Below are positions 19,601 to 58,555 of a DNA stretch of 64,000 nucleotides, piece by piece. The stretch's first letter is position 1. Every line of letters begins with the position of its first letter. The DNA comes from a candidate division Zixibacteria bacterium HGW-Zixibacteria-1 (GTDB taxonomy: Bacteria; Zixibacteria; MSB-5A5; GN15; PGXB01), in assembly GCA_002838945.1 (NCBI GenBank), contig PGXB01000010.1, positions 62,001 to 126,000 of the forward strand, in the 5' to 3' direction. A program made the position numbers and the translations under genes. Below the pieces are notes generated by a model. The model had not been told where the DNA came from, searched no databases, and worked only from the letters and a program-made list of their open reading frames with translations.

Positions 19601-22600
19601 CGCCGGCGGGAAGTGCCGAGGTCGTCAAAGTCGGGATTGATTCTATATCGGTGCCTGAGACACCAAAACTCAAATTGACATTTTCGGTAGTTGACTGCGC
19701 CCCGATTGCGGCCAGTATCGGCAACTGGTTGCCCGCTTCGATGACATTGATTGTAATTGTTTCCGAATCAACCGCCAGCGAGTCATCGGTGGCATAGAAG
19801 GTAACATTGTAAATACCGGACTGGAGGAAGGTCGGCGTCCAGTCAAACGACCCTGTGCCATTTCCATTATCGACAAAGCCGGCACCGGCAGGAAGCGCCG
19901 ATGTCATCAAAGCAGGTACTGACTCTATATCAGTAGCGGAGATACCAAAATTCAAATTGACATTCTCGGTGGTCGATTTATTCCCGATAGTCGCCAGAAT
20001 CGGCAACTGGTTGCCGAATTCGGTAACATTAATGGTCACCACTTCCGAATCAACAGCCGAGGAATCATCCGTCGCATAGAAGGTCACAAAATAAGTGCCC
20101 GACTGCAGGAAGGTCGGTGTCCAGTCGAAGGCACCTGTGCCATTTCCATTATCGACGAAGGCGGCGCCGGCAGGAAGTGCCGACGTGGTCAGGATCGGAG
20201 TTGATTCTATATCTGTGGCGGATATGCCAAAACTCAGATTTATATTTTCGGTGGTTGACTGCGCACCAATCGCGGCCAGGATCGGCAGCTGATTGCCCGC
20301 TTCGATCACGGTAACGGTAATTGTCTCCGAATCGACCGCAAGCGAGTCATCGGTGGCATAGAAGGTAACATCATAAGTGCCGGACTGCAAGAAGGTCGGC
20401 GTCCAGTCGAAGGTTCCTGTGCCATTTCCATTATCGACAAAAGCGGCTCCGGCAGGAAGTGCCGAGGTCGTCAAAGTCGGGATTGATTCTATATCGGTGC
20501 CTGAGACACCAAAACTCAAATTGATATTTTCGGTTGTTGACTGCGCCCCGATTGCGGCCAGTATCGGTAACTGGTTGCCCGCTTCGATGACATTGATTGT
20601 AATTGTTTCCGAATCAACCGCCAGCGAGTCATCGGTGGCATAGAAGGTAACATTATAAATACCGGACTGGAGGAAGGTCGGTGTCCAACTGAAGGCACCT
20701 GTGCCATTGCCATTATCGGTGAATCCAGCGCCGGCAGGAAGTGCCGATGTCGTCAAAGTCGGAGTCGATTCTATATCGGTGGCGGATATACCAAAACTCA
20801 GATTTATATTTTCGGTGGTTGACTGCGCACCAATCGCGGCCAGGATCGGCAGCTGATTGCCCGCTTCGATCACGGTAACGGTAATGGTTTCCGAATCGAC
20901 CGCCAGCGAATCATCGGTCGCATAGAAAGTGACATCATATGCTCCTGATTGCAGGAAAGTCGGCGTCCAGGTAAATGATCCGGTGCCATTGCCATTATCG
21001 GTGAATCCAGCACCGGCCGGAAGGATCGACGTTGTCAAAGCCGGAGTCGATTCTATATCACTGGCTGAAATACCAAAGTTCAGATTCACATTCTCGGTTG
21101 TTGATCGGTCACCGATTGCGGCCAGAACCGGTAACTGGTTGCCGAATTCAGTCACGGTTATGGTAACTTCTTCGGAATCCACGGCCAGCGAGTCATCGGT
21201 CGAATAGAAGGTAACATTGTAAATACCGGACTGGAGGAAGGTCGGCGTCCAGGTGAAGGCACCTGTGCCATTGCCATTGTCGGTGAAACCGGCTCCGGTC
21301 GGAAGGGTCGATGTTGTCAAAGCCGGGGTCGATTCAATATCAGTGGCCGATACGCCAAAACTTAGATTGACATTTTCGGTAGTTGTCTGGGTTCCGATTG
21401 CGGCCAGAATCGGCAGCTGATTGCCCGCTTCATTGACCGAAATCGTGATTTTCTCCGAGTCAACCGCCAGCGAGTCATCGGTGGCGTAGAAGGTAACATC
21501 ATAAGTACCGGACTGCAGGAAGGTCGGTGTCCAGTTGAAGGCACCTGTGCCATTTCCATTATCGACAAAAACGGCACCAGCAGGTAGAGTCGATGTCGTC
21601 AGACTCGGGGTTGATTCTATATCGGTAGCGGAAATTATAAAGTTCAAATTGGTATTTTCATTTGTGGACCGCGCTCCAATCGCCGCCAGAATCGGCAATT
21701 GGTTGCCGCCGTCATTAACAGTAATCGTGACCACTTCGGAATCGACCGCCGCGGTATCGTCGGTAGCATAGAAGGTTACACTATAGATGCCGGACTGGAG
21801 GAAGGTCGGTATCCAGCTGAAGCTTCCGGTCCCATTATTATTATCAGTAAAGACGGCCCCGATGGGCAACGAAGACGTTGTCAGATGCGGGATGGTCAAA
21901 TCGGCATCACTCGCTGAGACACCAAAACTGAGGTTCACATTTTCCGTCGTTGATTTCGGGCCGATAGCGGCCAGAACCGGTGTCTGATTACCGGCTTCGT
22001 TGACGGTAATGGTTACCAAATCGGTATCGGAATAGACACCATCGGTGGCATAGAAGGAAATATTGTACGATCCTGATTGCGTAAATCCGGGTGTCCAGTT
22101 AAATGTACCGGTGCCGTTATGATTGTCCACAAACGTTGCGCCGGAAGGCAGCGCCGTCGTCGTCATAACCGGATTGGTTCCATCGGGATCGGACGCGGTG
22201 ACGCCAAAATTAAGATTGACGCCCTCGGTGGTTGACCGATTGCCGATGGTCGTCCAGACCGGAGCCTGGTTGCCGGTTTCAAAAACGTTTATGTATATCT
22301 GCTCGGAATCGGTGGCAACACCATCCGAGGCATAGAATGTCACGCTATAAGCGCCTGCCTGCGTAAAGTTGGGCGTCCAGGTGAAATTGGCGGTGCCGTT
22401 GCCGTTATCGGTAAAGCCGGCGCCGGAAGGCAGAGCCGAGGTTGTCAATGCCGGGGTTGTCGAATCCGCATCGGTCGCGGAAACATTGAAATTCAGGTTG
22501 ACACCTTCACTGATAAATTTATTCCCGACTGCGGCCAGCACCGGAGTCTGGTTGCCGGCCTCAACGACGGTTATCGTCACAACTTCGGAATCAACCGCCA

Positions 22601-25600
22601 AAGAATCATCGGTCGCATAGAATGTAACGGTATATATACCGGACTGATTGAAGACCGGTGTCCAGCCGAAGGTGCCGGTGCCGTTTCCATTATCACTGAA
22701 TGATGCACCAGAAGGTAATGAGGAACTTGTCAATACCGGTATGAAACCATCGGCATCACCGGCCGAAATACCAAAACTCAGATTGACCCCTTCGGTAACT
22801 GATCTTGGGCCGATCGCGGCCAGAACCGGCGGGAGGTTAACCTGATTGACGGTTATGGATATTACTTCCGAATCGACGACGAGCGAATCATCAGTTGCAT
22901 AGAATGTGATCGAATATGGCCCCGCTTGGGTGAAATCAGGTGTCCAGATGAATGTCTCGGTTCCTGTGCCCGTGCTGCTGAATGTTGCACCGGACGGGAG
23001 CGCCGATGTCGTCAGAGTCGGAATTGTACCATCCGGATCGGTGGCCGAGACGGTGAAATTCAGATTGACGCCTTCGTCAACAATTTTATTTCCAATCGCC
23101 GCCAGAACCGGCGGGAGATTGACCTGATTAATGGTAAATGTAACCACCTCGGAATCAACCGCGGTAGAATCATCGGCGGCATAAAATGTAATATTATAAA
23201 TTCCGGACTGCCCAAAATCGGGTGTCCAGTTAAATGTCTCGGTGCCCGTTCCGGCAGCCGTAATTGTCGCGCCGGTAGGAAGCAGGGAAGTGGTTATAGT
23301 CGGAGTCGATTCTATATCGGTGGCGCTGACCGTGAAATTGATATTAACATTTTCATCGGCCGATTTCGGGCCGATCGCGGCCAGAATCGGCAACTGGTTG
23401 CCGGCTTCGATGATATTTATCGTTACGATTTCCGAATCAACCGCAGAAGAATCATCGGTGGCATAGAACGTAACCGTGTATGGCCCTGATTGCAGGAAAG
23501 TCGGGGTCCAGTTGAATGTCCCGGTACCATCACCGTTATCGGTAAAGCCGGCGCCGGTCGGAAGAGACGATGTAGTCAATGCCGGTATGTCACCATCAGA
23601 ATCGGAAGCACTCACCGCAAAATTGAGATTTATATTTTCGGTCGTGGATCGACTGCCGATCGCCGCCAGAATCGGCGGCAGATTGACCTGATTCACCGTA
23701 ATAGAGACAACTTCCGAGTCAACCGCTGATGAATCATCAGTCGCATAGAAAGTAACCGAATATGTACCCGACTGGGTGAAGTCCGGTGTCCAGTTAAAGG
23801 TCCCGGTTCCACCGCCGGCACTCGTAAAGGTGGCGCCGCTCGGTAAGGCCGAACTTGTAATTATCGGGATGGTCCCGTTGGGGTCGGTGGCGCTTACGGC
23901 AAAATTCAGGTTTGCACCTTCGTTAATCGATTTGGAACCGATTGTCGCCAGAACCGGTGCCTGATTACTGTTGAAGACCTGGATGGTCACAGCTTCCGAA
24001 TCAATGGCCAGTGAATCATCAGTCGCATAAAACTTGACGATGTAAACACCGGACTGCGTGAAGTTGGGCGTCCAGCTAAAAACACCGGTACCGTCATGAT
24101 TATCGGTAAATCCGGCACCATCCGGCAATGACGATGTACTTAGGCTCGGAATGGACTCAATATCGGTGGCCGAAACACCAAAACTAAGATTGACACTTTC
24201 GGGTGCCGACTTAAAGCCGATTGCCGCCAGTACTGGAAGCTGATTGCCGGCCTCTATAATATTTATCGTAACGATTTCCGAATCTACCGCCAATGAATCA
24301 TCGGTCGCATAGAAGGTGACCGTGTATGGGCCGGACTGCAGGAAGGTCGGGTTCCAATCGAAGGTGCCGGTGCCGGTGCCATTGCCATTGTCATTGAAAG
24401 CGGCGCCGGCCGGCAAAGTTGAAGTTGTCAATATTGGAGTTGATTCTATATCGGTAGCGGAAATCACAAAATTCAAATTAACATTTTCGATCGTGGACTG
24501 TGTTCCGATCAATGTCAGCACCGGAGCCTGATTGCCGCCGTCAATGACTGTAATGCTTACGACTTCGGAATCAACGGCTGAAGAATCATCCGTCGCATAG
24601 AAGGTCACGGAGTAATTCCCGGACTGCAAATATGTCGGTGTCCAATTGAATGTGCCGGTATTATTGCCATTGTCACTGAAAGTGGCGCCGCCCGGTAAGG
24701 TCGTATGGGTCAGCACGGCAATAGTGCCGTCAATATCGCTGACACTGATGCCAAAATTAAGATTGATCCCCTCAGTTGTTGACTGGGAGCCAATTGCGGC
24801 AAGAACGGGCGGCTGATTTATCTGGTTGACCGTGATCGTCACGACTTCGGAATCAACGGCTGAAGAATCATCCGTCGCATAGAAAGTAACTGTATATGGC
24901 CCGGCCTGAGTGAAATCAGGCGTCCAGTCGAATGTCTCGGTGCCGGTCCCGGTTGACGTGAACGTCGCGCCGGTATTCTTGGAGCCGATCGAAGCCAGAA
25001 CCGGTACTAAATTAACCTGGTTGACGGTTATCGATACAACTTCGGAATCGACGGCTGAAGAATCATCCGTGGCATAAAATGTCACTGTATATGGACCGGC
25101 TTGCGTGAAGCCGGGCGTCCAGTCGAATGTCTCGGTGCCGGTTCCGGTTGACGTGAACGTCGCGCCGGTCGGGAGCGCCGAGGTTGTTATTATCGGGGTC
25201 GTGCCGTCGGCATCGGTCGCTGATACGGTGAAATTCAGATTGACGCCTTCATCGGTGCTCTTTGAACCGATCGAAGCCAGGACGGGTATTAAATTAACCT
25301 GGTTGACCGTGATTGAGACGACTTCGGAATCAACCGCCGAAGAATCATCAGTCGCATAGAAAGTAACTGTATATGGCCCGGACTGGGTAAAGTTGGGTGT
25401 CCAGTCGAAAGTTTCGGTGCCGGTTCCGGTACTCGTGAAAGTCGCGCCGGTCGGGAGCGCCGAGGTTGTTATAATCGGTGTCGTGCCGTCGGCATCAGTC
25501 GCCGAAACACTGAAATTCAGATTGACGCCTTCATTGATGTTCTTTGCGCCGATAGCTGCCAGAACCGGTGTCAGATTGACCTGGTTGACCGTTATCGATA

Positions 25601-45690: not shown

Positions 45691-46689
45691 TTAACTTTTT
45701 TCTTTGACAGTATCAAGAAGTTTTTGAACGATGGCCGGGGTATCGACACCATCAGCCTCGGCATTGAAGGAAGTCACGATTCGATGTCTCAGCACCGGCA
45801 GCGCCGCAAATCTTACATCCTCCGGCCCCGGTGTCGGGCGGCCGTCGAGAATGGCGCGTGTCTTGGCGGCCAGAATCAAATATTGCGAGGCGCGCGGGCC
45901 GGCTCCCCACGAGACCCAATTTTTGATAAAATCAAGCCCTCCGTTTTCGGGCCGGGTGGCGCGGGCAATATTGACGGCATACTGAATCAGGTGATCCGAA
46001 ACCGGCACCCGCCGGACCAGCCGCTGTAAAGCAATTATCTGTTCGGCATTTAATATTTTTTCGAGTTTATATTCCGGGGTCACCGTGGTCGTTCGGACAA
46101 TCTGCTGCTCCTCGGCATTGGATGGGTAATCGACACTGACATGAAACATAAACCGGTCGAGCTGAGCTTCAGGCAGCGGGTAAGTGCCTTCCTGCTCAAT
46201 CGGGTTTTGCGTGGCCAGAACAAAGAACGGCTCATCAAGACGGAAAGTCTGGCCATGTGAAGTCACTTCATGTTCCTGCATGGCCTGCAGAAGCGCCGCC
46301 TGCGTTTTTGGCGGGGTTCGGTTGATTTCATCTGCCAAAATGACATTGGCAAAAACCGGCCCTTTGACAAACTTGAATTCACGCCGGCCGGTTGAGCGAT
46401 CCTCTTCAATAATCTCCGTTCCGGTAATATCCGAAGGCATTAAATCAGGAGTAAATTGAATGCGGCTGAATTTGAGATCTAAGATATTAGCCAATACAGA
46501 GATAAGTAAAGTTTTGGCCAGACCCGGGACGCCCACCAGCAAGCAGTGCCCGGAGGCAAGAAAGGCAATCAGGAGTTGCTCAATTACTTTATCCTGTCCG
46601 ACAATAACTTTGGCTATTTCTTTCTTTATATTCGCGTATGCGGCGTTAAGTTGTTCGACAGCTTGAAGATCACTTTTATTTTCGGCCAT
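45691..46689 (-). CDS. MoxR family AAA+ ATPase
   Basis: This 332-residue cytoplasmic ATPase has Walker A GVPGLAKT (about 38-45), Walker B VILADEINR (about 117-125), sensor 1 LATQNPIEQEGTYPLPEAQLD and the C-terminal AAA lid (GPRASQYLILAAKTRA, DGRPTPGPEDV). MoxR proteins act with DUF58/vWA proteins as chaperones that insert metals or mature envelope complexes. The start has AGGAGGAATAAAATG. The membrane protein gene follows, and the DUF58 partner lies about 3.2 kb further on, beyond the AT-rich cassette. The upstream region holds DnaA-box-like sequences and may be the replication origin. Confidence 0.96.
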   Translation of the reverse strand: MAENKSDLQAVEQLNAAYANIKKEIAKVIVGQDKVIEQLLIAFLASGHCLLVGVPGLAKTLLISVLANILDLKFSRIQFTPDLMPSDITGTEIIEEDRSTGRREFKFVKGPVFANVILADEINRTPPKTQAALLQAMQEHEVTSHGQTFRLDEPFFVLATQNPIEQEGTYPLPEAQLDRFMFHVSVDYPSNAEEQQIVRTTTVTPEYKLEKILNAEQIIALQRLVRRVPVSDHLIQYAVNIARATRPENGGLDFIKNWVSWGAGPRASQYLILAAKTRAILDGRPTPGPEDVRFAALPVLRHRIVTSFNAEADGVDTPAIVQKLLDTVKEKS

Positions 46690-46779
46690 TTTATTCCTCC
46701 TATGAACCGATTAGAGGCAGAATATCGCACTGATCCAAGTAATCATTTCGGCACTATATATAATGGTAGCGGGGAAATA

Positions 46780-46935
46780 ACAACCATAGCTATAAGTCTT
46801 TTAGGGCAGGCAATTTGTGGAAAAGCGGCTAAAATTAGGCTTCATATATATGATGCAAGCTTCAACCGCACATAGCAATAGCTACATATCCACAATATCG
46901 GTTAGTTATCCACACTATCAACCGCTTGTTGATAA
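46780..46935. other. candidate replication origin (DnaA-box cluster)
   Basis: Within 121 bases lie TTATCCACA (46906-46914, exact consensus), ATATCCACA (46886-46894, one mismatch), TGTGGAAAA (46815-46823, reverse TTTTCCACA, one mismatch) and TGTTGATAA (46927-46935, reverse TTATCAACA, one mismatch). AT-rich runs with ATATATAT-type steps stand beside them. The segment lies between moxR and the bactofilin gene, next to parAB and within 10 kb of rpmH, mnmG and rsmG. oriC commonly lies in such a neighbourhood. The dnaA gene itself is not in the window. The assignment is inference from boxes and context. Confidence 0.55.
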
Positions 46936-47334
46936 TTACTTCTTCAGCTCCGTACCGACCTTAACCTGATCCTTCAGTTGTTCATTTTTCTCCTGCGGCG
47001 GGATAAATCCCAAACTGGACTTTCCCTCTTTCATATGACAGGAGCCGCAAAACACTGCGCCTTGCTCAACCACCAAAGATTTAGTCCTGATATCACCTTC
47101 GATATCGGACTTGGCCTGGAGTTCTATCTTTTCGGAGGCAACCAGATTACCGACCACTTTGCCGGCGATAACGGCGGTCTGGGAATCGACATCCGCTTCA
47201 ACATAGCCGCCGGATCCAACCGTGACCACATCGGAGCAAATAATCTTGCCCTTGACCGTTCCGTCGACGCGCACAGCGCCCTTAACTTCGAGTGTGCCGG
47301 TAAAAACGGTATCCTTGCCGATGATAGTGTTCAT
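46936..47334 (-). CDS. bactofilin
   Basis: Bactofilins polymerise without nucleotide into cytoplasmic scaffolds that localise envelope or chromosome-segregation proteins. The sequence has the family start NTIIGKDTVFTGTLEVKG and the beta-helix repeats VDGTVKGKI, VGSGGYVEADV and AVIAGKVVGNLVAS, in a DUF583 core of about 100 residues. A C-terminal tail contains CGSCHM, a CxxC pair that is unusual for the family. I choose ATG 47334 because AGGTGGAG directly follows the M23 stop and precedes it. An ATG at 47358, inside the M23 gene, is also possible, and the frame is open to 47376. The gene is tightly linked to the M23 peptidase and parAB, as in bactofilin systems that act with peptidoglycan hydrolases or ParABS. 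Confidence 0.93.
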   Translation of the reverse strand: MNTIIGKDTVFTGTLEVKGAVRVDGTVKGKIICSDVVTVGSGGYVEADVDSQTAVIAGKVVGNLVASEKIELQAKSDIEGDIRTKSLVVEQGAVFCGSCHMKEGKSSLGFIPPQEKNEQLKDQVKVGTELKK

Positions 47335-47344
47335 AACTCCACCT

Positions 47345-48133
47345 TCATTTTTGCTCATTAGTTCCCTCATGTTCACTAATATATATTAAAGGGTTAACTG
47401 GTATGTCATTTTCTCTAATTTCATAATGCAAATGCGGTGCCGTCGATTTGCCGGTATTGCCCGACAGGGCGATTCTTCCGCCGACCAGAACATCCTGACC
47501 CGCCTCCACCAGCAGTTCGCTGTTGTGACCGTATAGAGTCGAGATGCCGTCATCATGCTCAATAACCACCATCAGGCCGTAGGTCGAGTCTTCACCTGCA
47601 AAAGTTACTTTGCCCGAAGCGGTCGCCAGCACGGCGGTTCCTTCGGCCACGGCAATATCGACGCCGGGATGATAATCTTCCTGGCCGTCTTTGAAACCGC
47701 GTGTCATGTAGCCCTGCAGCGGCAATCCCTCGGGTCGTCCGAACCCCGACAATACCGAGCGAGTCATCACCGCCGGCCGGGGGTTATCGATCTCCGCGAA
47801 AATTATCGAGTCGGGAGGAATCTCGGCCAATTGGATATCAACTCCGGCCAGTTTCGAGATTCGGCTGACCACCTCGCGCGCCTCGCTCATTCTTTCTTCC
47901 AGAAGCGAAACCTTGTATTTATATCTCTTGAGCGATTCGTTTTCCTCTTCCAGCCGGCCGGCCAGGGCGGCCCTCACTACAATCTTGCCATAGAAGGCGA
48001 AAAACAGAATCAACCCCACCATTAATAGAGCCGCGATCGCAATACCGGTCTTGAACAGCCATGCCCTGACTCTGATTCCAAAGGGGTTCTCGACTCCGTC
48101 CGGAACAATCATCAAATTGTAGTACTTGCCCAT
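47345..48133 (-). CDS. M23 family metallopeptidase, membrane-anchored
   Basis: This 262-residue protein starts with a short cytoplasmic part, a membrane segment (about 28-50, TGIAIAALLMVGLILFFAFYG) and a coiled-coil (LEEENESLKRYKYKVSLLEERMSEAREVV). The C-terminal lysostaphin-like domain (about 145-255) has the zinc ligands HPGVDIA and HLHYEI and the motif LYGHNSEL, so it should be an active peptidoglycan endopeptidase in the periplasm. It starts 13 bases after parB, and its stop is fused to the ribosome site of the bactofilin gene. M23-bactofilin pairs are known from other bacteria, where the bactofilin positions the hydrolase for cell shape control; that role is inferred here. Confidence 0.95.
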   Translation of the reverse strand: MGKYYNLMIVPDGVENPFGIRVRAWLFKTGIAIAALLMVGLILFFAFYGKIVVRAALAGRLEEENESLKRYKYKVSLLEERMSEAREVVSRISKLAGVDIQLAEIPPDSIIFAEIDNPRPAVMTRSVLSGFGRPEGLPLQGYMTRGFKDGQEDYHPGVDIAVAEGTAVLATASGKVTFAGEDSTYGLMVVIEHDDGISTLYGHNSELLVEAGQDVLVGGRIALSGNTGKSTAPHLHYEIRENDIPVNPLIYISEHEGTNEQK

Positions 48134-48146
48134 GTTTATCAGTTTC

Positions 48147-48998
48147 TCAATTTATTTTGCGGAACAATTCCAGTAATCGCTCCAGATCTTCCTCACCATA
48201 GTAATCGACCTCAATCCGGCCTCGCTTGAGCCCCGGTGTAATTTTTACCGCCGTTCCTAACAACTGTTTCAAATAATTTTCCGTTTCGATAATCGAAGGA
48301 TTTTTCCTGCGGGGCAGCGAACGCCTGCGCTTGCTGTGTCGGGCCGTCTCCTCGGCATCGCGCACCGACATATTCTCGCTGATAATCCGCTCTGCCAGCC
48401 GCACTTGCGACACCCCGCCGTCCACCGCCAAAACGGCCCGCGCATGACCCTCCGTCAATTTGCCGGCCCGTATCATTTCCTTGATTTTATCCGGAAGACC
48501 CAGCAGCCTGAGACTGTTGGCCACCGCGGCACGGCTCTTGCCGACCCTGGTCGCGAGCTGATTCTGTGTCATGGCGCCGTCATCCATCAGCCGCTGAAAA
48601 GCCTCGGCGGCTTCGAGCGGATTGAGGTCCTCGCGCTGAAGGTTCTCCACCAGGGCCATCTGAAGCATCTCGCCTTCGTTGCTCTGGTCGATGATAATCG
48701 CCGGGATGTTTTTCATTTCCGCCAGATGCGCCGCACGGTACCGCCGCTCCCCGGCAATAAGGATAAACATGTCATTATTTTGCCGGACAAGAATCGGCTG
48801 AAGGACACCCTGGCTCTTGAATGATTCGGCCAGTTCATGCAGGGAGCTCTCGTCAAACTGCTGACGCGGCTGCATCGGATTCGGTGCAATTTTATCCAGC
48901 GGGATCAACCGATATGTACCATTGGCCCTGGCCCCGCTTTCTTCCAGGGTCGGAATAAGGGCATCAAGGCCCCGACCCAATACTATCTTGCTGCTCAT
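48147..48998 (-). CDS. parB: chromosome partitioning protein ParB
   Basis: ParB binds parS sites, spreads as a CTP-dependent clamp and helps segregate the replicated origin. The 283-residue protein has the N-terminal domain with LRIPLDKI-like start (TYRLIPLDKIAPNPMQPR) and the CTP-binding motif GERRYRAAHLA. The helix-turn-helix lies at about 140-175 (MTQNQLATRVGKSRAAVANSLRLL), and a C-terminal dimerisation domain follows. The ATG overlaps the parA stop (ATGA), so translation is probably coupled. Two parS sites occur nearby (50320-50335, 52347-52362). Confidence 0.97.
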   Translation of the reverse strand: MSSKIVLGRGLDALIPTLEESGARANGTYRLIPLDKIAPNPMQPRQQFDESSLHELAESFKSQGVLQPILVRQNNDMFILIAGERRYRAAHLAEMKNIPAIIIDQSNEGEMLQMALVENLQREDLNPLEAAEAFQRLMDDGAMTQNQLATRVGKSRAAVANSLRLLGLPDKIKEMIRAGKLTEGHARAVLAVDGGVSQVRLAERIISENMSVRDAEETARHSKRRRSLPRRKNPSIIETENYLKQLLGTAVKITPGLKRGRIEVDYYGEEDLERLLELFRKIN

Positions 48999-49753
48999 CG
49001 ACTCAACACCTCCTTGGTCAGAGCCATATAATTTTCCGCTCCGCTCGACAGAATATCATAAAGGATGATCGGTTTCCCGAAACTCGGCGCCTCCGACAAA
49101 CGCACGTTGCGATTGATGATGGTGTCATACACGCGGCTGTCGAAAAACCGCCGGGCTTCATCGGCCACCTGGCGCGAAAGATTCAAACGCCGGTCGTACA
49201 TCGTCAGCAACACTCCCTCGATCTCCAGACCGGGATTGAGATTACCCTGCACCAGCTTGATCGTATGAAGCAGCTGCCCCAGCCCCTCCAGAGCATAGTA
49301 CTCGCACTGGATCGGGATCAGCACCGAATGCGCCGCCGTCAGGGCATTGACGGTGAGCAGGCCGAGCGACGGGGGACAATCGATAATAATGTAGTCATAC
49401 ATGTCGATGATAGGTGCAAGCGCATGGGCCAGGATTTTTTCACGCGACATCATCCCGACCATCTCGACCTCGGCGCCGACGAGGGATATCGAGGACGGCG
49501 CGACGTTGAAATAGGATAATTCTGTCGGCGTTATAATATCGACCATATTTTTGCGGCCAATCAGGACATCATAGATTGATGATTCAACCTTAGCCTTGTC
49601 GAACCCGACCCCGGAGGTGGAATTGGCCTGCGGATCAATATCGATCAACAGCGTTTTCTTTTCCGCCACCGCCAGACAGGACGACAGGTTAATCGCGGTG
49701 GTGGTCTTGCCGACACCGCCCTTCTGATTGGCTACCGCAATAACTTTTGCCAC
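48995..49753 (-). CDS. parA: chromosome partitioning ATPase ParA (Soj)
   Basis: This 252-residue ATPase binds nucleoid DNA and drives segregation of ParB-parS complexes. It has the deviant Walker A ANQKGGVGKTTTAINLS (residues 7-23), Walker A' LLIDIDPQANST and Walker B DYIIIDCPPSLG. There is no N-terminal DNA-binding extension, so it is a chromosomal Soj-type protein. It follows rsmG by 77 bases and overlaps parB by four. The usual order mnmG-rsmG-parA-parB is kept. Confidence 0.97.
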   Translation of the reverse strand: MAKVIAVANQKGGVGKTTTAINLSSCLAVAEKKTLLIDIDPQANSTSGVGFDKAKVESSIYDVLIGRKNMVDIITPTELSYFNVAPSSISLVGAEVEMVGMMSREKILAHALAPIIDMYDYIIIDCPPSLGLLTVNALTAAHSVLIPIQCEYYALEGLGQLLHTIKLVQGNLNPGLEIEGVLLTMYDRRLNLSRQVADEARRFFDSRVYDTIINRNVRLSEAPSFGKPIILYDILSSGAENYMALTKEVLSR

Positions 49754-49830: not shown

Positions 49831-50457
49831 TCAGTCGCGTTTGGAAAAAATAGTTATGGCGCGAAGTTGTTTAATATCATCCAAATAATAATTGTGGATA
49901 ACTCGCTCGAAAGAACCGGGGACGTCGCTGGAGATCTTTTCCGCGGAGGCATAATAAATGAGCCTCCCGCTCGGCCTAAGAAGCGAGCCGGCGCCGCGGA
50001 ATATCTTTCTATCGGGGCGAACCAGCTTGATCGTGCCGAAATCGAAAGAACCCGGCTCGAGCCGGCGGACCGCTTCGGCAAAATCAAGGTCGATCACCTC
50101 GGCCGGGAGGTGAGACTGTCTGATGAAATCACGCAGGAAGACCGCCTTTTTCCCGATTCGCTCGAAAAGGGTCGCTTCCACACCGGGGAAGGCCAGAAGA
50201 AAAACGATCGCGGGGAAGCCTCCTCCTGAGCCGATATCGAAAAAACGGCCTCGAGGCAGCATTCCGAACTCAAGAGGAACCAGGCAGTCGGCCGCGATTT
50301 TCAGAAGATCCGGGACCGATGTTTCACGTGAAACAATATTGACTTTCTTATTATAATCCAGAACGGCGTTGATGAAGCCATTCACAGCATCTTTTATATT
50401 ATATTTGGCGATAATATCTTCTGAGTGGAAAAGGGGGATTTTTGCCGAAACAGCCAT
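49831..50457 (-). CDS. rsmG: 16S rRNA (guanine-N7) methyltransferase RsmG
   Basis: RsmG methylates G527 of 16S rRNA with S-adenosylmethionine. The protein has the start NIVSRETSVPDLL, the SAM motif FFDIGSGGGFPAIVF (family DIGSGAGFPG) and the late segment RPSGRLIYYAS. I place the start at ATG 50457 (208 residues). The frame is open to 50616, but that stretch overlaps mnmG and does not resemble RsmG. ATG 50484 would overlap mnmG by 17 bases. A perfect parS site lies inside the gene and encodes VSRETS. The length fits the family (about 210). Confidence 0.93.
   Translation of the reverse strand: MAVSAKIPLFHSEDIIAKYNIKDAVNGFINAVLDYNKKVNIVSRETSVPDLLKIAADCLVPLEFGMLPRGRFFDIGSGGGFPAIVFLLAFPGVEATLFERIGKKAVFLRDFIRQSHLPAEVIDLDFAEAVRRLEPGSFDFGTIKLVRPDRKIFRGAGSLLRPSGRLIYYASAEKISSDVPGSFERVIHNYYLDDIKQLRAITIFSKRD
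50320..50335. other. parS site (perfect)
   Basis: TGTTTCACGTGAAACA, the exact 16-base palindrome bound by chromosomal ParB, lies inside rsmG about 1.3 kb from the parB start. Confidence 0.95.
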
Positions 50458-50467
50458 ACTCTGCCGA

Positions 50468-52354
50468 TCAATGATTACTGGCATCGGGATGAATCGCCCG
50501 GTGCTTTTTGAGGTGAATCGATAGCGCCGCCAGGTCGCCGGTGGTGACCCCCTCAATACGCCCCGCCTGGCCAAGCGAAGTCGGCCGGAATCTGGCGAAT
50601 TTCTCGCGGGCCTCATTGCGAAGGCCGGTCAGACTCTCGAAGGGAAGATCGTCCGGAATGATTTCACTTTCCATCCGCTGAAAACGCTCTACCTCACGCT
50701 CCTGTTTTTTGATATAACCCTCATACTTTATATAAATCGAAGCGCGTTCGATAATTTCCGGGAACAGAGCCACGGCGCTATTATCGGCGATGTCCATATG
50801 GGCAATCTCGGCGTAGGAGACGTTGGGGACCTTGAGAAGGTCGGCCAGCGAAATATGCTCCTTCTTTATAAAGTGCTGCGCCAGTCCGTCAAGCTTCGAA
50901 ACCGGGACCACTATCTTTTTCAACCTTCGAATCTCTTCCTTAGTCGCCTTCTGAATCTGCTCAAACCTGTCATAATCCTCACCAGGAATCAGCCCCAATT
51001 TCCCGGCGTAATCAAAAAGCCGGTCTCTGGCATTATCTTCCCGAAGCCGCAAGCGGTATTCGGCACGGGAAGTGAACATTCGATAAGGTTCTGTAGTCGA
51101 TAATGTTATCAAATCATCAATCATGACACCAAGATATGACTCAGCCCGACTGGGAACAAAGGGCAGCTGACCGGTGATTTTCAAACAGGCGTTGACAGCC
51201 GCTACCAGACCTTGTCCGCCCGCTTCCTCGTAGCCGGAAGTGCCGTTTATCTGACCCGCAAAATATAATCCCTCAATCTTCCTCGTCTCGAGTGTCGCCC
51301 TGATCTGATAGGCCGGGCAGTAATCATACTCAATAGCATATCCCGGCTTGGTGATAATAGCTTCCTCCAGGCCGATCACGGTCCGGATCGACTCAAACTG
51401 GACCTCTTCCGGAAGCGATGTCGAAAAACCGTTGGGATAAATCTCATCGGTTCCGCTTCCTTCCGGCTCAAGAAATATCTGGTGCCGCGGTTTATCGCTG
51501 AAACGATGTATCTTATCTTCTATGGAAGGACAGTATCGCGGCCCGATCGACTTAATTTGCCCGGAGAACATCGGCGACCGCAACAGGTTTCGGGTGATGA
51601 TTTCCTTTGTCTTGTCGGTCGTATAGGTCAAATGGCAGGGAACTTGATCAATATGAAACGGTCGGGTGGTATATGAGAAGAACGGAATCGGCTCCATTCC
51701 GGGTTGCAGCTCACACCGGTCGAAATCAATGGTCTTACCATCCAGCCGAGGCGGCGTTCCGGTCTTAAGCCGGCCCACCTCGAAACCAAGGTTTCGCAGC
51801 GATTCGCTCAGACTATAAGCCGCTTTGTCACCACGACGGCCGGCAGGGATTTTTGTCTCACCAATATGAATCAGGCCGCCCAGAAAAGTCCCGGTACACA
51901 AAATCACCGCGCGGGAGAATATCTTATGCCCATCCTCGGTCTCAATCCCAATAGCCTTGCCGCCTTCAGTCAAAATTGACCCGGCGGTAGCTTCGATTAC
52001 TGTGACTCCCGGCGCACTGGTGACAAACTGCGAGACGAATCTCGTATAGGCCGCCCGATCGGCCTGGGCGCGCGTGGACCATACGGCCGGTCCTCGCGAA
52101 AGATTGAGCTTCCGGAACTGTATGCCGGTGGCGTCTATGGCCTTGCCCATCAAGCCGCCAAGCGCATCTATCTCTTTGACAATATGTGATTTACCCAAGC
52201 CGCCAATCGCCGGGTTGCAGGACATCAGGGCCAGCTTGTTGCGATCCATGGTAACCAGGGCGGCTGTTCGGCCCATCCTTGAGGCCGCCAGAACCGCCTC
52301 GACCCCGGCATGTCCGCCGCCAACCACAATTATGTCAAAATCAATTTGTTTCAC
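50468..52354 (-). CDS. mnmG: tRNA modification enzyme MnmG (GidA)
   Basis: With MnmE this FAD enzyme adds carboxymethylaminomethyl to wobble uridine 34 of several tRNAs. The 628-residue protein has the FAD Rossmann motif DIIVVGGGHAGVEAVLA at its start, MSCNPAIGGLGKSHIVKEIDALGG, LKTGTPPRLDG and the C-terminal domain (RTLEIRRL-like RATLETRKIEGLYFAGQ, GTSGYEEAGGQG). The start is GTG 52354 (the next residues are KQIDFD). That start codon lies inside a second parS site. It follows mnmE by 29 bases. Confidence 0.97.
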   Translation of the reverse strand: MKQIDFDIIVVGGGHAGVEAVLAASRMGRTAALVTMDRNKLALMSCNPAIGGLGKSHIVKEIDALGGLMGKAIDATGIQFRKLNLSRGPAVWSTRAQADRAAYTRFVSQFVTSAPGVTVIEATAGSILTEGGKAIGIETEDGHKIFSRAVILCTGTFLGGLIHIGETKIPAGRRGDKAAYSLSESLRNLGFEVGRLKTGTPPRLDGKTIDFDRCELQPGMEPIPFFSYTTRPFHIDQVPCHLTYTTDKTKEIITRNLLRSPMFSGQIKSIGPRYCPSIEDKIHRFSDKPRHQIFLEPEGSGTDEIYPNGFSTSLPEEVQFESIRTVIGLEEAIITKPGYAIEYDYCPAYQIRATLETRKIEGLYFAGQINGTSGYEEAGGQGLVAAVNACLKITGQLPFVPSRAESYLGVMIDDLITLSTTEPYRMFTSRAEYRLRLREDNARDRLFDYAGKLGLIPGEDYDRFEQIQKATKEEIRRLKKIVVPVSKLDGLAQHFIKKEHISLADLLKVPNVSYAEIAHMDIADNSAVALFPEIIERASIYIKYEGYIKKQEREVERFQRMESEIIPDDLPFESLTGLRNEAREKFARFRPTSLGQAGRIEGVTTGDLAALSIHLKKHRAIHPDASNH

Positions 52355-52362
52355 GTGAAACG
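52347..52362. other. parS site (15 of 16 match) over the mnmG start
   Basis: TGTTTCACGTGAAACG differs from the consensus only in the last base. It spans the GTG start codon of mnmG, so ParB binding could influence mnmG expression. Confidence 0.85.
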
Positions 52363-52383
52363 AGCCGCAACCCGCTGTCCTTT

Positions 52384-53795
52384 CTACTTACCGATACAAA
52401 ATCTCGAGAAAATATTCTCCAGTATCTCATCATTATATATTCTGCCGGTTATCTCGTCAATTTGATTTATTCCCGACCGCAATTCGAAAGCGATCAACTC
52501 CGGCGATTCCTCTTTGACAATATTCTTTCTTGCTTTTCCAAATGCTGCCAGAAAATCGTCCAGCTTCTTCTTGTGACGCGCCGAGGTCACCACCAGCCGA
52601 TCGGTCAGATCCGGCATGCTTTCATTTATACGCTTAATCAGCTCTTTTCTCAAGAGCTTAAAACCGGTGTCAGTTTTACAGGACATTGGAATTACTTTGA
52701 GCGCTTTATTCTGACAGTCAATTGATCCGGCCGCACTTTTGTCGAAATTCCCTATTTTATCAATCTTATTGAGGGCAACTAATGTCTTTTTATCTTTGGA
52801 TATCTCATTTATATCTTTGATTGTCTCAGACTTCCACTCTTTTCGGGAAATATCGACAATCCAGATCACCAGGTCGGAATCATTTATTATGCCTTTTGCC
52901 GATACCTGACCCGCCTTTTCGATTTGCCCGCCTTTGGCCCGCAGGCCGGCTGTGTCGGTTATCGAAACCGCGGCACCCTCCATATCAATCCATTCGGTCA
53001 GATAGTCGCGGGTGGTCCCGGGAGTGGGTGCCACAATAGCTCGGTTCTGATTCAGCATCAGGTTAAATAGCGATGATTTGCCGGCATTGGGACGACCCGC
53101 AATAGCAATCTTGAAACCTTCCTTGATAATTTGCCCGGCCCGGTATGATTCACTCAATTCCTTCGCATGGAAGATAATAGTGTCAATCGATTCCAGCAGT
53201 CGTGCTTTATCCCCGGCTTCCAAGCCTTCTTCGGGATAGTCAACCGAAACTTCAATCTCAGCCAGAAGCGCTATGGCGCCGCTTCGAATCGAGTCGATAT
53301 AATCGGTCATCCGGCCCAGAAGATTGTTCATTGCGGCATGGTATGAGTACTCCGTCTTTGAAGCAATCAAATCGGCGACCGCTTCGGCTTTGGCCAAATC
53401 GATTCGTCCGGCCAGAAAGGCTCTCCTGGTGAACTCGCCCGGTTCCGCCGGCCGAACCTGATTCCCATAAATTACCTCAAGTATCTGCTTCAGCACATAC
53501 TGGCCGCCATGGCAAAATATCTCGGCCTGATTCTGGCCGGTATATGATTGCCCCTGAGGCATTTGAACCATCGTAACTTCGTCGATTATATTACTTTGAT
53601 TATTGATTATATGGCCATAATAAAGATGAAAAAAGCGATCCGGAGTTATTTCCGGATCAGCGGGACGAAATATTTTCCTGATGACTTTCGGGGTCTCGGG
53701 GCCGGAGATACGAATCGCCCCGATGCCGCCCTCACCGGGCGGCGTGATTATCGCGGCAATCGTATCATCTTTTGATATATTCTTTTTTTTTTCAT
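52384..53795 (-). CDS. mnmE: tRNA modification GTPase MnmE (TrmE), frame break at start
   Basis: MnmE is the GTPase partner of MnmG. The frame encodes the whole family sequence: SKDDTIAAIITPPGEGGIG at the N-terminus (folate-binding domain), GQNQAEIFCHGGQYVL, the G domain with P-loop GRPNAGKSSLFN, switch TPGTTRD, DTAG and NKID, and the C-terminal CIGK. It has no ATG, GTG or TTG before 53571, inside the protein. An ATG at 53795, seven bases after the yidC stop, is out of frame. It is followed by A10 (53783-53792), and A11 would give MKKKKNISKDDTIAAI in frame. So the start needs one extra A, by slippage or by correction of a sequencing error. An ATA start at 53778 (ISKDDT) is less likely. Confidence 0.9.
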
Positions 53796-53801
53796 CGAAG
53801 C

Positions 53802-55526
53802 CTATTTAAGAACCTGGACATCCGCCGTTTGCGGTTTTCTGAAAACAAGCTGCTCGACAAAGGAAAAGAGCGAGAAACAGGTCCAGTATAGCACCAATCC
53901 GGCCGAGGCGGAGTAGAAAAAGAAGCCCAGCATCAGCGGCATAATATATGTCAGAGCCTTATTCTTCGGGTCCGTCATGGTCATCTTCTGCTGGACAAAC
54001 ATCAGCGCCACCATCAGAACCACAAGAATAATATAGGGATCGGTCACCGACAGCGCCCCACGCGAAAGATCGTCCCACCATAAAATAAACGGTGCCTGGC
54101 GCAGCAAAATGGTCGAACGGAAGACGGCAAAAAGAGCAAAGAAAAGAGGCATCTGCGGCAAATACGGCAGACATCCGGATAACGGATTAATACCCCTCTC
54201 CTTATAAAGTTTCATCATTTCTTTATTTAACGCCTGAGGATTATTCTTGTGCTTCTCCTGAAGCTCCTTCATCCTCGGCTGAATTTCCTTCATGGCCTGC
54301 ATCGACTGAACCGTCTTCCGGGACAGCGGCCAGGTGATCAGTTTGATAAATGCCGAGAAGATGATAATCACCAAACCATAGTTGGGGATGATGCTGTACA
54401 TTCGCGGCAGAAGCCACATGATCGGAATGGCAAAGATCTTGATAATCCATCCGATAAATGGGGTCGTTCCGATATCGATTATATCGACAACACCATTGTT
54501 AAAATCTTTGAGACGTTCATAGTCCATCGGGCCGATATAAACCGAAAAGCTGTCTTTCATCGGCTCACTCAGTGGCGGCTCCATCAAGATACCGATCGCG
54601 AGCTCGCGAGCCTTGACCTTCTTGCCGTTAATAAGCAGATGATCCTGAATGCCCGAGGCAATGGTGCCGGTACCCAGTCGTGACCGTGGAATCATCACGG
54701 CCGCAAAATATTTCGACCTGGTGGCCACCCAGCTGGTGGTGCCGTCATATGTCCCGCTGAACTGATCATTATTGTAATCATCGAATTTTATCCGCTCGCC
54801 GGCCTGCAGGGCCATTGCCCACATGGAATTGTAGTCATCCTGAAAATCCAGCTCTGTCGGCATAAGCTTGTTGTTCCACTCCAACGTATATCGGCGGTCA
54901 AAACCCAGGGCCTCCGGATTGTTAACCTCAACCACCAGATCATAATCAAACCGGTCGGCATAAAAATGGTAACGCTTGGTGATAGTCGAATTGTCCTTGC
55001 GATAAGTATAGATAACATCAGCCGAGCCGCTTGAGATTCGAAAATTTCGCTCACGAGACTGGCAATTGAAAATATAACTTCCGGTCGAAATCGACCGGCT
55101 GCTAAACTTGAGTTCAGGCGTTGCGATTGCATTATCAGGAAGCATCTCAACCGGTTCACCATCACCAGGATACAAATAATTAACCAGTTTCAACGAAACC
55201 GGGCCGCCCCCATAGTTGGATAAGGCGACTTTCATGACGTTGGTTTCGACAAAAACAGTTTCCGCCGGCGGCGGTGGAATCGAGCCATTATCAGCCTGTG
55301 TCAATTCAGCCATTTGGGCAGTAACATCTGTCACATCGGCAGCAGTCGGCTGTGACGGAGTTGCCTGTTGTGTCTTTACTTGTTGTGTATCAGCTTGTTG
55401 TGTTATCTGTTCGGTGGCAACAGGGCGCTCAATTGGCTGGAGAAAGCCAAGCTTTGTCATTATTGGAACCCAGAATATTACTAGGACTCCGAGAAGTATT
55501 ATTATTGGTATGGTTCTTTTGTCCAA
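53802..55526 (-). CDS. yidC: membrane protein insertase YidC
   Basis: YidC inserts and folds inner-membrane proteins, alone or with SecYEG. The 574-residue protein has an N-terminal membrane anchor (MDKRTIPIIILLGVLVIFW), a Gln/Thr-rich linker, the periplasmic beta-sandwich domain (about 85-330) and the conserved C-terminal core of five membrane segments (WPLSRKTVQSMQAMKEIQPR, YKERGINPLSGCLPYLPQMP). It ends before mnmE, whose ATG lies only six bases past this stop. The length is that of a Gram-negative-type YidC. It starts 13 bases after yidD. Confidence 0.97.
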   Translation of the reverse strand: MDKRTIPIIILLGVLVIFWVPIMTKLGFLQPIERPVATEQITQQADTQQVKTQQATPSQPTAADVTDVTAQMAELTQADNGSIPPPPAETVFVETNVMKVALSNYGGGPVSLKLVNYLYPGDGEPVEMLPDNAIATPELKFSSRSISTGSYIFNCQSRERNFRISSGSADVIYTYRKDNSTITKRYHFYADRFDYDLVVEVNNPEALGFDRRYTLEWNNKLMPTELDFQDDYNSMWAMALQAGERIKFDDYNNDQFSGTYDGTTSWVATRSKYFAAVMIPRSRLGTGTIASGIQDHLLINGKKVKARELAIGILMEPPLSEPMKDSFSVYIGPMDYERLKDFNNGVVDIIDIGTTPFIGWIIKIFAIPIMWLLPRMYSIIPNYGLVIIIFSAFIKLITWPLSRKTVQSMQAMKEIQPRMKELQEKHKNNPQALNKEMMKLYKERGINPLSGCLPYLPQMPLFFALFAVFRSTILLRQAPFILWWDDLSRGALSVTDPYIILVVLMVALMFVQQKMTMTDPKNKALTYIMPLMLGFFFYSASAGLVLYWTCFSLFSFVEQLVFRKPQTADVQVLK

Positions 55527-55539
55527 AATCTAACTCCGT

Positions 55540-55794
55540 TTATATATCATCCTGATTTTTCAATGGAACCGGATCATAGCCGCCTTCATGCCAGGGGTGG
55601 CAGCGAAATATCCTTTTAACCGCCATAATTGCTCCGTGCCAGGCGCCGTAATGCCGGATAGCGTCCTCGGCATAATGCGAACAGGTCGGGTAGTACCGGC
55701 ACTGATTGCCGATCATTGGCGACAATGTATATCGATAAATTGTAATAAGCAGAAGCAGCGGATAGCTGAATATGGATATTTTGCGGTCAAGCAT
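55540..55794 (-). CDS. yidD: membrane protein insertion efficiency factor YidD
   Basis: This 84-residue protein has the conserved YidD core YRYTLSPMIGNQCRYYPTCS followed by HYAEDAIRHYGAWHG and RCHPWHEGGYDPVP. It is a small membrane-associated factor that aids YidC/Sec insertion. It overlaps rnpA by eight bases, in the usual order rnpA-yidD-yidC. Confidence 0.97.
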   Translation of the reverse strand: MLDRKISIFSYPLLLLITIYRYTLSPMIGNQCRYYPTCSHYAEDAIRHYGAWHGAIMAVKRIFRCHPWHEGGYDPVPLKNQDDI

Positions 55795-56128
55795 TTAGAT
55801 TCAACGATTTAAATAGACGTTCCAGTTCGCTTTCAAGCAGTTTATGGTCGATACCATCGGCCGCGCCCTTAAAACGGACAATAAAAGTGCCGGCGATATT
55901 TTCCTGCTCTTGAAGCTTTCTGAAGTCTTCTCGCATCCAGCGTTTTATTCGATTGCGCGCCACAGCCTTACCAGCCCGCCCCGAAATTAAAAAAGCAACC
56001 TGATAATTCCCGGCTTTCTCCGGCAGTGCCTTATCATAATAAAGCTCCAGCCGACTGGAAGTATGTTTTTTCCCGGAGCGAAGCAGTGATTGAATCATCG
56101 TTTTGCTTTTCAGGCTGTAACGGGACAA
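55787..56128 (-). CDS. rnpA: ribonuclease P protein component
   Basis: This basic protein of 113 residues assists the RNase P RNA in cutting the 5' leaders of tRNA precursors. The signature GRAGKAVARNRIKRWMRE is present, with VAFLISGRAG before it. An alternative internal ATG exists at residue 11, but the first start fits the family length. It follows rpmH by eight bases and shares its promoter. Confidence 0.95.
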   Translation of the reverse strand: MSRYSLKSKTMIQSLLRSGKKHTSSRLELYYDKALPEKAGNYQVAFLISGRAGKAVARNRIKRWMREDFRKLQEQENIAGTFIVRFKGAADGIDHKLLESELERLFKSLNLNA

Positions 56129-56136
56129 TTATTATT

Positions 56137-56289
56137 CTATTTTTCTTTTTTGGTGCTGACAGTCAGTCTTTTTCTGCCTTTGGCCCGACGGCGAGCCAGA
56201 ACCTGACGGCCCGTCCGAGTGGACATTCTTTTCCTGAAACCGTGGTCGTTTATCTTCTTCCGGTTCGATGGCTGAAATGTTCTTTTCAT
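56137..56289 (-). CDS. rpmH: 50S ribosomal protein L34
   Basis: This 50-residue protein is very basic, with the L34 start [12 protein letters not shown] followed by [20 protein letters not shown] and a final KKEK. It is the first gene of the block and is preceded by a clear promoter. In many bacteria dnaA and oriC lie just upstream, but here a secreted metalloprotease gene does. Confidence 0.97.
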
Positions 56290-56644
56290 TTTCGTCTCAC
56301 TTTCAATTCTATTATAGAATGGCTAATATAACCAAATTTCCGCAATCGTCAAGCAAAATTGCCGACTATATACCCCATAAATTATACCTCCAAATCTATT
56401 ACGGGTCGAATATCAAAAAGTTTAAAAATGCAAAACCCCGAATTTCCCAACCAATTAGGGAATAATACGGCCCATCAGCGGGTATCACGCGATATACCTA
56501 TCATCAATCCCCGGCCGGCTGTATTTTTAACCTGGGTTCTTCAGGAAATAATTGTTTTTATATATTACATTTAAATTCGATTATATAATATACTGCTGAC
56601 GGATAGATCAAGGAAATCATAACCTCTGGACCATGGAGGGAGCC
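56290..56644. other. divergent intergenic region upstream of rpmH
   Basis: The left end holds the rpmH promoter (56325-56352). The rest is AT-rich and should contain the promoter of the plus-strand metalloprotease; a TATAAT at 56584-56589 lacks a good -35 box. No DnaA boxes (TTATCCACA type) were seen, so I do not place oriC here. Confidence 0.5.
56325..56352 (-). promoter_or_regulatory. rpmH: sigma70-type promoter of the rpmH operon
   Basis: On the minus strand TTGACG (56347-56352), a 16-base spacer and TATATT (56325-56330) lie about 36 bases before the rpmH start. Confidence 0.65.
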
Positions 56645-58555
56645 ATGAGATTCATGATTGACAACACCGATAAAACCATCATTTTTCTGGCGGCAATACT
56701 GGCCGCAGCCATATTAATCCTGCCATCATCAGGGCAATCAGCCGGTCTTTCTAAAGAATATCAGCAGGAACTTGATGCCCGCATACTGTTTCTCCGAAAC
56801 ATGGGGCCGGCGCCGGTCCTGGTCAAAGATCAGCCGCCGCAGCGCTGCGGCACTCCGACCGCGCTCGAGTATTTCATACGCCTCGATAATTTAACAATTA
56901 AATCCGAAACCGCCGCCACCGCCTACAACCGGCCGTCGCTGCAATATTCTTATAAATCACCCGGCGGATATTTCTGGGTGCATTATGACATTGACGGCGC
57001 CGATGCCGTTTATTTGCCGGGAACCGACACCCTTGCGGGCGGCGATGGGATCCCCGATTATGTCAACAAAATCGGCGAAATGGCCGACTCGGTCTGGGAA
57101 TTCGAAATTAATCATCTCGACTATCCGGCGCCCTACGACCTCACCGGCGGCGGCGACTCGCTTATGGATATATATATTATCAACCTGGGCACCGGCTACT
57201 ACGGCATCACTTATCCGGAATCGACTTTGAGCGTCCAGGCGGTTACTTCATACATCGTTATCGACAACAACTACGATTTCTGGCCGTACAACACCGGCCC
57301 GGAGCTGAACCGGCGGCTCGATGCCGCCCGGGTCACCGTGGCCCACGAGTTTTTTCATACTGTCCACTTCATTCTCGATTACACCGAATATGAGGAAGAG
57401 GACAGTTATTTTAAATTGTATTGGTGGGAGATGTCTTCGACCTGGATGGAAGAAATGATGTATGACGGCATCAACGACTACTATTACTATCTCGAATATT
57501 ATCTCGATTACACCTGGCTCGGTCTTCAATTTGTCGATTATCCATCACAGACCATCCATCAGTACGGCGCCATGCTGTTCCCGTTATTTTTAACAGAGAA
57601 ATTCGACACTTCGATCGTGTACGATATTTGGGCGCGCTGTCAATCATATGGTCCCGGCTCGCAGTTTCCGCTGGCGGCCAATTCGGCCATCTTAAATATA
57701 AGCGCCGGCACTTATGACCTTCTGATCGCTTTCAACGAATTCGCAGCCTGGAATTACTTTACGGCGATTGGTTTCGATGCCGCCCCCAATGAAATGGGTT
57801 ACCCTGAAGCCGCAAATTACCCGGCCATCCCCGACTCGGTCATACTTGACATCAACGATTATGCCGATGTCAATCTGGTCTGGCCGGTCTGGCCGGACAC
57901 GCTGCCCGATGGTTCCTCGCTGACTTTTTTCAAGACGCACATGCCGCAGAATATGGCCGCTCATTATGTAAGATTAAACAATCTCGGTCAATTCAATGAC
58001 ACTCTCTTTATCGGCGGTGACCCTTCGATTGACTGGGCCGTTATCGCTTTCGGCTATAATCCTTACACTTTCCACTATGAGTTCATGCAGCAGTCGGAAA
58101 TGTCGGGCGGGGATGTTTTGAGATTCACGAAACCGGCCTTTGAATACAGCCAAATCCTTATTATCTTATCACCGGTTTCGACCAGTATCGACCTTTATCC
58201 CGATAAATTTGGATACAGTTTGGTTGCGGGGATTTACGCCGACGTCGATGATCAACCGGAGAATGACATTCTTCCGGAGCAGTTCCTGCTTCAGCAGAAT
58301 TATCCCAACCCGTTTAATCCGATAACAACCATTGCCTATTCGGTACCGTGGCGGTCTGAGGTAAAACTGGTGGTTTATAATGTCCTTGGTCAGGCTGTCA
58401 AAACGCTTTTACAGGGAACCCGGGCGGCCGGGGATTATACTATTATATGGGATGGAACCGACCAGTCGGGAAAACCGGTCCCGTCGGGCATTTATTTCTA
58501 TCAGTTCAGTTGCGGCGATTTCCAGACCTCGAGAAAAATGATCCTGTCCAAATAG
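56645..58555 (+). CDS. secreted MXAN_6640-like metalloprotease with type IX-like tail
   Basis: The start is ATG 56645 (636 residues), with GGAGGGAGCC before it. An ATG at 56633 overlaps that ribosome site. A signal peptide (FMIDNTDKTIIFLAAILAAAILIL) is followed by a domain with YFWVHYDIDGADAV and DGIPDYVNKIGEMADSVW, as in MXAN_6640-type putative zinc proteases. The active-site region reads VTVAHEFFHTVHF, a HExxH motif, with STWMEEMMYD about 30 residues later giving the likely third ligand Glu. A beta domain precedes the C-terminal FlgD-like tail (LQQNYPNPFNPITT, VYNVLGQ, AGDYTIIWDG, PSGIYFYQF, SRKMILSK). It is the only tail protein in the window on the plus strand and is followed by a bidirectional terminator. 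Confidence 0.88.
   Translation: MRFMIDNTDKTIIFLAAILAAAILILPSSGQSAGLSKEYQQELDARILFLRNMGPAPVLVKDQPPQRCGTPTALEYFIRLDNLTIKSETAATAYNRPSLQYSYKSPGGYFWVHYDIDGADAVYLPGTDTLAGGDGIPDYVNKIGEMADSVWEFEINHLDYPAPYDLTGGGDSLMDIYIINLGTGYYGITYPESTLSVQAVTSYIVIDNNYDFWPYNTGPELNRRLDAARVTVAHEFFHTVHFILDYTEYEEEDSYFKLYWWEMSSTWMEEMMYDGINDYYYYLEYYLDYTWLGLQFVDYPSQTIHQYGAMLFPLFLTEKFDTSIVYDIWARCQSYGPGSQFPLAANSAILNISAGTYDLLIAFNEFAAWNYFTAIGFDAAPNEMGYPEAANYPAIPDSVILDINDYADVNLVWPVWPDTLPDGSSLTFFKTHMPQNMAAHYVRLNNLGQFNDTLFIGGDPSIDWAVIAFGYNPYTFHYEFMQQSEMSGGDVLRFTKPAFEYSQILIILSPVSTSIDLYPDKFGYSLVAGIYADVDDQPENDILPEQFLLQQNYPNPFNPITTIAYSVPWRSEVKLVVYNVLGQAVKTLLQGTRAAGDYTIIWDGTDQSGKPVPSGIYFYQFSCGDFQTSRKMILSK

Follow-up and report, generated by a model that had tools for sequence, protein, structure and literature searches.

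Does chromosome replication start in the short gap between a bactofilin gene (bacA) and moxR, where DnaA boxes cluster beside parAB? An initial annotation of this DNA had proposed a candidate chromosomal origin at this junction. The sequence analysed, called the window below, is the 64-kb stretch G000:C10:62001-126000 of a Zixibacteria MAG (3.83 Mb, 82 contigs; genome G000).

A box cluster between bacA and moxR

One exact and three one-mismatch DnaA boxes had been reported within 121 bases, and all four were found where they had been placed. Compared with TTATCCACA, they span 120 bases of the bactofilin-moxR gap. Coordinates of the boxes and of the neighbouring genes are collected in Table 1.

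Table 1. Features of the box array and its surroundings (window coordinates)
Feature	Position	Strand	Remarks
Box 0	46927..46935	-	TTATCAACA; adjoins bacA stop
Box 1	46906..46914	+	TTATCCACA, exact; TGTGGATAA when read from bacA to moxR; 21 bp past bacA stop
Box 2	46886..46894	+	ATATCCACA; tandem with box 1, 20-bp pitch
Box 3	46816..46824	-	TTTTCCACA; inverted; 90 bp to box 1, 70 bp to box 2
Intergenic segment with array	46690..46935		246 bp, 38.6% GC
moxR, AAA+ ATPase	45691..46689	-	PF07726; downstream gene in the order
Bactofilin gene bacA	46936..47376	-	PF04519; array begins at bacA 3' end
M23 peptidase gene	47345..48133	-	
parB	48147..48998	-	
parA	48995..49753	-	
rsmG, mnmG, mnmE, yidC, rnpA, rpmH block	49831..56289	-	transcription directed at array
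parS	50320..50335		exact TGTTTCACGTGAAACA; inside rsmG
parS, one mismatch	52347..52362		at mnmG start

Within the 64-kb window, 24 sites differ from TTATCCACA by no more than one base, and nowhere else do four of them fall within 121 bp. When 144 kb of the contig were scored for clustering, the array reached 11 and the runner-up 6; the best of 20 Markov-shuffled copies reached 8. The cluster is the densest in the window and exceeds chance.

Read from the right on the minus strand, the gene order is rpmH-rnpA-yidC-mnmE-mnmG-rsmG-parA-parB-M23-bactofilin-gap-moxR. The block rsmG-mnmG-mnmE-yidC-rnpA-rpmH is usually found near bacterial origins. Most of the initial description of the surroundings was borne out. 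The neighbours are indeed moxR, bactofilin, M23, ParB and ParA, and the two parS sites announced within 6 kb (50320, exact; 52347, one mismatch) lie 3.4 and 5.4 kb from the box cluster; the whole G000 assembly has no further parS with at most one mismatch. As claimed, the region upstream of rpmH (56130-57200) contains no site within one mismatch of TTATCCACA, and dnaA is missing from the window: dnaA and dnaN of this genome are on contig C14. The segment had also been called AT-rich. Its GC content is below that of the window (38.6% versus 49.4%), but the AT-richness is only moderate; the AT content was 57-62% in the first 200 bp of the array region and 42-65% in the preceding 600 bp.

Other features of the window were recorded in passing. 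Beside rpmH, positions 56633-58555 encode a putative metalloprotease of the MXAN_6640 family with a T9SS type A sorting domain. An ORF of 2822 aa occupies 16617-25085 on the minus strand; copies of the 9-mer TTATCGACA in it lie multiples of 282 bp apart, from 18175 to 21559, which suggests tandem repeats of 94 aa. The whole 64-kb window yielded neither a tRNA nor an Rfam match at gathering score.

Conservation of the array in relatives

The initial annotation had named conservation of the boxes in relatives as a check, and here its expectation held: the array is conserved across the order with fixed geometry. In the family of the window (f1), all 12 loci from 11 genomes had box 1 at 0, box 2 at 20 and the inverted box 3 at 89-90, and the sequence between the boxes had diverged in the bacA-moxR gaps. 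A pattern describing this exact layout matched 49 of 132 genomes of the phylum: 48 of the 80 order genomes (families f1 and f4) and one of the 52 elsewhere in the class. The latter match lacked good boxes and looks like chance. A backward control pattern had no match among the 132 genomes. The exact pattern occurred once per genome; the exception was G005, an assembly of joined contigs whose positions and copy numbers mislead, and its two loci were therefore uninformative. In 15 of the 32 order genomes negative for the exact pattern the gap was readable, and all 15 had a relaxed array (spacings of 19-21 and 87-91), which did not appear in any of 100 shuffles of each.

In total, 46 distinct exact-pattern arrays were collected. 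The median distance from the inferred stop of bacA to the start of box 1 was 21 bp (IQR 19-24), with one array in which that stop falls beyond box 1, and the distance from box 3 to the next gene start varied from 96 to 678 bp. A fourth site like box 0 at the bacA stop was present in only 12 of the 46. The motif YAWNNNNTTG, IHF/HU-like by comparison with the IHF consensus, was present at offset 33-35, in the stretch separating box 2 from box 3, in 21 of 34 f4 arrays, compared with 0.6% of shuffles, and in one of 12 f1 arrays. The search for a covarying hairpin between boxes 2 and 3 gave only a slight excess over controls. DnaA-trios within 0-16 bp of a box were not consistently enriched at the three boxes of the 46 arrays; one of six tests was above control (box 1, read for the middle A).

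Outside the order, an inverted pair at 88-90 bp was found in four of 30 moxR loci of the class: G061 and G062 (f5), G109 (f14) and G120 (f17). These arrays directly follow bacA and mostly have a weaker middle box; an extra gene of about 225-245 aa, without significant Pfam match, lies between array and moxR. In f16 and f19 bacA is present and the three-box layout is absent. In f7 (G067, G068) an inverted pair at 69-70 bp follows an M23 gene and lies about 1.4 kb from the dnaA start; this M23 gene is divergent from dnaA (L257, L263, positions 1-960), and its protein is 22% identical to the M23 protein of the window. The f7 sequences suggest that the element can sit by dnaA. In summary, the three-box array at the bactofilin 3' end beside parABS is conserved across the order, and some further families of the class share it.

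In the 10 genomes searched, parS sites were found only near parB, apart from one extra one-mismatch site in G016. An array-parB separation in G055 was rejected as an artefact of a join inside bacA. The array contig carried dnaA in all nine order genomes checked in which this contig was at least 188 kb long, at a distance of 16-58 kb in eight and 215 kb in G008; the 153-kb array contig of G000 is without dnaA. The confinement of parS to the vicinity of parB, together with the linkage to dnaA in nine of nine genomes, places the array locus near the origin, and parA, parB and parS all lie in the origin domain.

Strand asymmetry around the array and dnaA

Third-position GC skew was read in the bacA-to-moxR direction, with yidC to M23 as the rnpA side and moxR plus its conserved neighbour as the moxR side. 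The set comprised 24 genomes; G022 was dropped because it has no moxR side, and G005 and G055 were omitted because they are broken by joins. The two sides of the array agreed (r=0.91; step -0.007 ± 0.032; mean absolute value 0.155), and the sign was the same on either side in 21 of 24. Genes on the opposite strand agreed in sign as well (r=0.81, n=17), which indicates an asymmetry of the DNA strands as produced by replication, not codon usage. Raw GC skew over up to 8 kb per side gave a step of -0.022 ± 0.017 (21 loci), in the direction opposite to that of an origin. As a positive control, E. coli oriC did switch sign (raw skew -0.035 to +0.019; third-position skew -0.023 to +0.026); this step is small, about 0.05, yet above the confidence limit of the array measurement. 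Equal sign and size on either side mean that forks run through the array, with the reservations that strand asymmetry is an indirect, long-term average, that a G-rich leading strand is the premise and that most of the genomes are fragmented MAGs. At the array most genomes had a positive sign; it was negative in G006, G013 and G027, and weakly so in G026. The block as a whole has thus been turned relative to the fork, which is not expected of a block containing the origin. The proposal of the initial annotation therefore stands in part: the array is real, conserved order-wide and close to the origin, but replication start at the junction is not supported by the 24 genomes, which lack an asymmetry switch there.

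Cumulative skew could be read in one usable single-contig relative, G008. Over 468 kb the minimum lay at 55.3 kb, on the rnpA side; its distance was 34 kb to the array and 181 kb to dnaA. A second local minimum was present near 201 kb. A minimum away from the array is the outcome that the initial annotation had itself counted against its proposal, yet this minimum was not beside dnaA either. The whole-contig fit of G008 was weak and multi-peaked, too weak to place the origin. With the terminus set near 1.85 Mb, the best origin was at about 40-60 kb, ahead of the array and dnaA, which tied; the unconstrained best fit, a segment at 550-950 kb, was rejected as spurious. The skews of the 'one-contig' genomes G044 and G055 were discarded, as G044, G051, G055 and G005 are contigs joined by 100-N runs.

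Symmetric inversions were also considered as a locator: dnaA occurred on either side of the array, and neither the direction of dnaA nor that of the array relative to dnaA was constant. A comparison of G000 with G008 showed collinearity between -9 and +67 kb, and an X centre was not clearly visible. The position of 16S gave little information on the origin. Four f4 genomes have one copy each of the dif-like 24-mer GTCCCATAAKATATATTATGTTAA (G044:C1:160562, G051:C1:918328, G055:C1:446562 and G041:C5:87913), and it is probably the dif of this family; distances to it were uninformative, since G044, G051 and G055 are joined assemblies.

The dnaA locus was compared in 30 order genomes. For sites deviating from the box in no more than one position, the mean density per 300 nt was 4.52 upstream of dnaA (n=29), 4.59 downstream of it (n=29), 3.67 for the array (n=21) and 0.25-1.25 within the dnaA coding sequence. 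Exact sites were commonest at the array (2.24 versus 1.14 upstream and 0.72 downstream of dnaA). The sites flanking dnaA were mostly in one orientation; in the dnaA-dnaN gap the two orientations had 5.0 and 0.23 sites per 300 nt. One-way rows of box-like sites were seen at these flanks (e.g. L033-L062, G000:C14:10043-14434), often at a spacing of about 12 bp or of 74/88 bp; they were densest in G035 and G039. DnaA-trios were not consistently enriched at dnaA. In f4 the asymmetry changed across dnaA from -0.118 to +0.103 (14 of 16 genomes, p=1e-4), whereas in f1 (10 genomes) it went from +0.088 to 0.000, opposite to an origin-like step. The side on which dnaA lies predicted the sign of the array asymmetry in four of seven genomes (right in G008, G041, G021 and G006; wrong in G026, G016 and G019). 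As the two families disagree and the sign was predicted in only four of seven, it is only in f4 that dnaA makes a fair candidate for oriC.

Control site or start site

E. coli provides the best-known DnaA control sites with a fixed architecture. Its datA, DARS1 and DARS2 are intergenic, non-coding sites that lie outside oriC and whose DnaA boxes keep a conserved spacing; the DARS core consists of three boxes (PMC4585315, PMC5295017). In datA the IHF site lies between boxes 2 and 3; both boxes are required, as are the IHF site and its spacing to each of them (PMC4585315). The array likewise consists of a few intergenic boxes with conserved spacing, outside oriC as judged from the asymmetry data, and in 21 of 34 f4 arrays, but only one of 12 f1 arrays, an IHF-like motif stands where datA has its IHF site. 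The comparison is one of architecture alone; the array lies beside parABS in another phylum, and the IHF-like motif belongs to one family. In B. subtilis six DnaA-box clusters lie outside oriC, and their joint removal advances initiation (PMC5295017); the array shares the clustering of boxes, but there is only one of it, conserved in a constant place and strict in its geometry. Chromosomal ParABS systems are usually found in the origin domain (PMC7022226). Here, too, parA, parB and parS lie in the rsmG-mnmG-rpmH block; the difference is the DnaA-box array at the operon 3' end, by bactofilin. A literature search, largely short of full text, returned no recognisable description of a Zixibacteria oriC or of this array.

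With a probability that we put just short of even, the array is a dedicated origin-proximal nucleoprotein site at which DnaA is controlled, of the datA, DARS or DnaA-box-cluster type, and not a start site. DnaA is predicted to occupy the tandem boxes 1 and 2 and the inverted box 3, and the DNA between them would be bent, in f4 perhaps at the IHF/HU-like motif. By analogy, the complex would titrate DnaA or alter its nucleotide state soon after initiation, and early duplication of the array could help to time the following round. By lying within the ParB-parS region, the array may also tie initiation to segregation. The origin itself would lie elsewhere, possibly at dnaA-dnaN in f4.

In another reading oriC would be at dnaA-dnaN, with a bipartite structure like that of B. 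subtilis, and the bacA array would be only one of several accessory DnaA sites. This reading is compatible with a control site and bears on where oriC is. We consider it somewhat unlikely: the dense, mostly one-way boxes at the dnaA flanks and the step in 14 of 16 f4 genomes argue for it, but f1 has no origin-like step, dnaA of G008 is 181 kb from the skew minimum, and the side on which dnaA lies predicts the array sign in four of seven genomes only. Moreover, the boxes there may serve dnaA autoregulation, and gene-specific codon bias can imitate a step across single genes. That the array is itself oriC or its core, with DnaA on the three boxes melting the adjacent AT-richer gap and loading the helicase, is unlikely. 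It does have the intergenic box cluster of an oriC, the best in the 468 kb around the G008 skew minimum and in 144 kb of G000 C10; in G055, with 43 TTWTCCACA sites, no other triplet of strict boxes occurs. It adjoins parS and mnmG; an oriC, too, would show strong boxes in fixed geometry beside parS order-wide, and the f7 pair after a distant M23 relative lies close to dnaA. E. coli oriC (mnmG-mioC type) is similar in its strong boxes and its intergenic gap near mnmG/rsmG, away from dnaA, as an origin at the end of the par operon would be. But the array, unlike E. coli oriC, has no asymmetry switch and no detected DnaA-trios, and its flanking operon runs toward it, so that rpmH-bactofilin transcription would meet the fork head-on; the G008 minimum is 34 kb off. 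The absence of a switch and of consistent trio enrichment, and the modest AT-richness (about 60% AT), indicate that the array is probably not the replication start.

A side observation concerns E. coli K-12, where the pair ravA-viaA (L281, 23153-26094), presumably including a MoxR-family gene, ravA, lies a few kb from oriC and mnmG; the parallel with moxR here may be coincidence. DnaA regulates transcription elsewhere, and the array could be a DnaA-controlled promoter or 3'-end element that puts moxR or bactofilin expression under cell-cycle control. Its position upstream of moxR in the order agrees with this, but f5, f14 and f17 have another gene in between, the distance to the next start varies whereas that to the bacA stop is nearly fixed, and the 0/20/90 three-box layout exceeds the needs of a simple repressor site; we hold such a role to be highly doubtful.

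A control site could also have a more specific form, which we rate as decidedly unlikely: a rigid, lineage-wide three-box station in a centromere-like region (parS-parAB-M23-bactofilin), reachable by ParA/ParB, that would couple an origin tens of kb away to segregation. A Soj-DnaA link is known in B. subtilis (PMC5295017). If true, the station would be the cis-encoded counterpart of that link and would represent a hitherto undescribed kind of replication-control site.

The array also calls for caution in MAGs, where box clusters and indicator genes alone can mislead origin calls: it satisfies those rules, yet the asymmetry says that forks traverse it. For the order, an invariant array tied to parABS would show a linkage of initiation and segregation in cis, and it offers a defined element to test.
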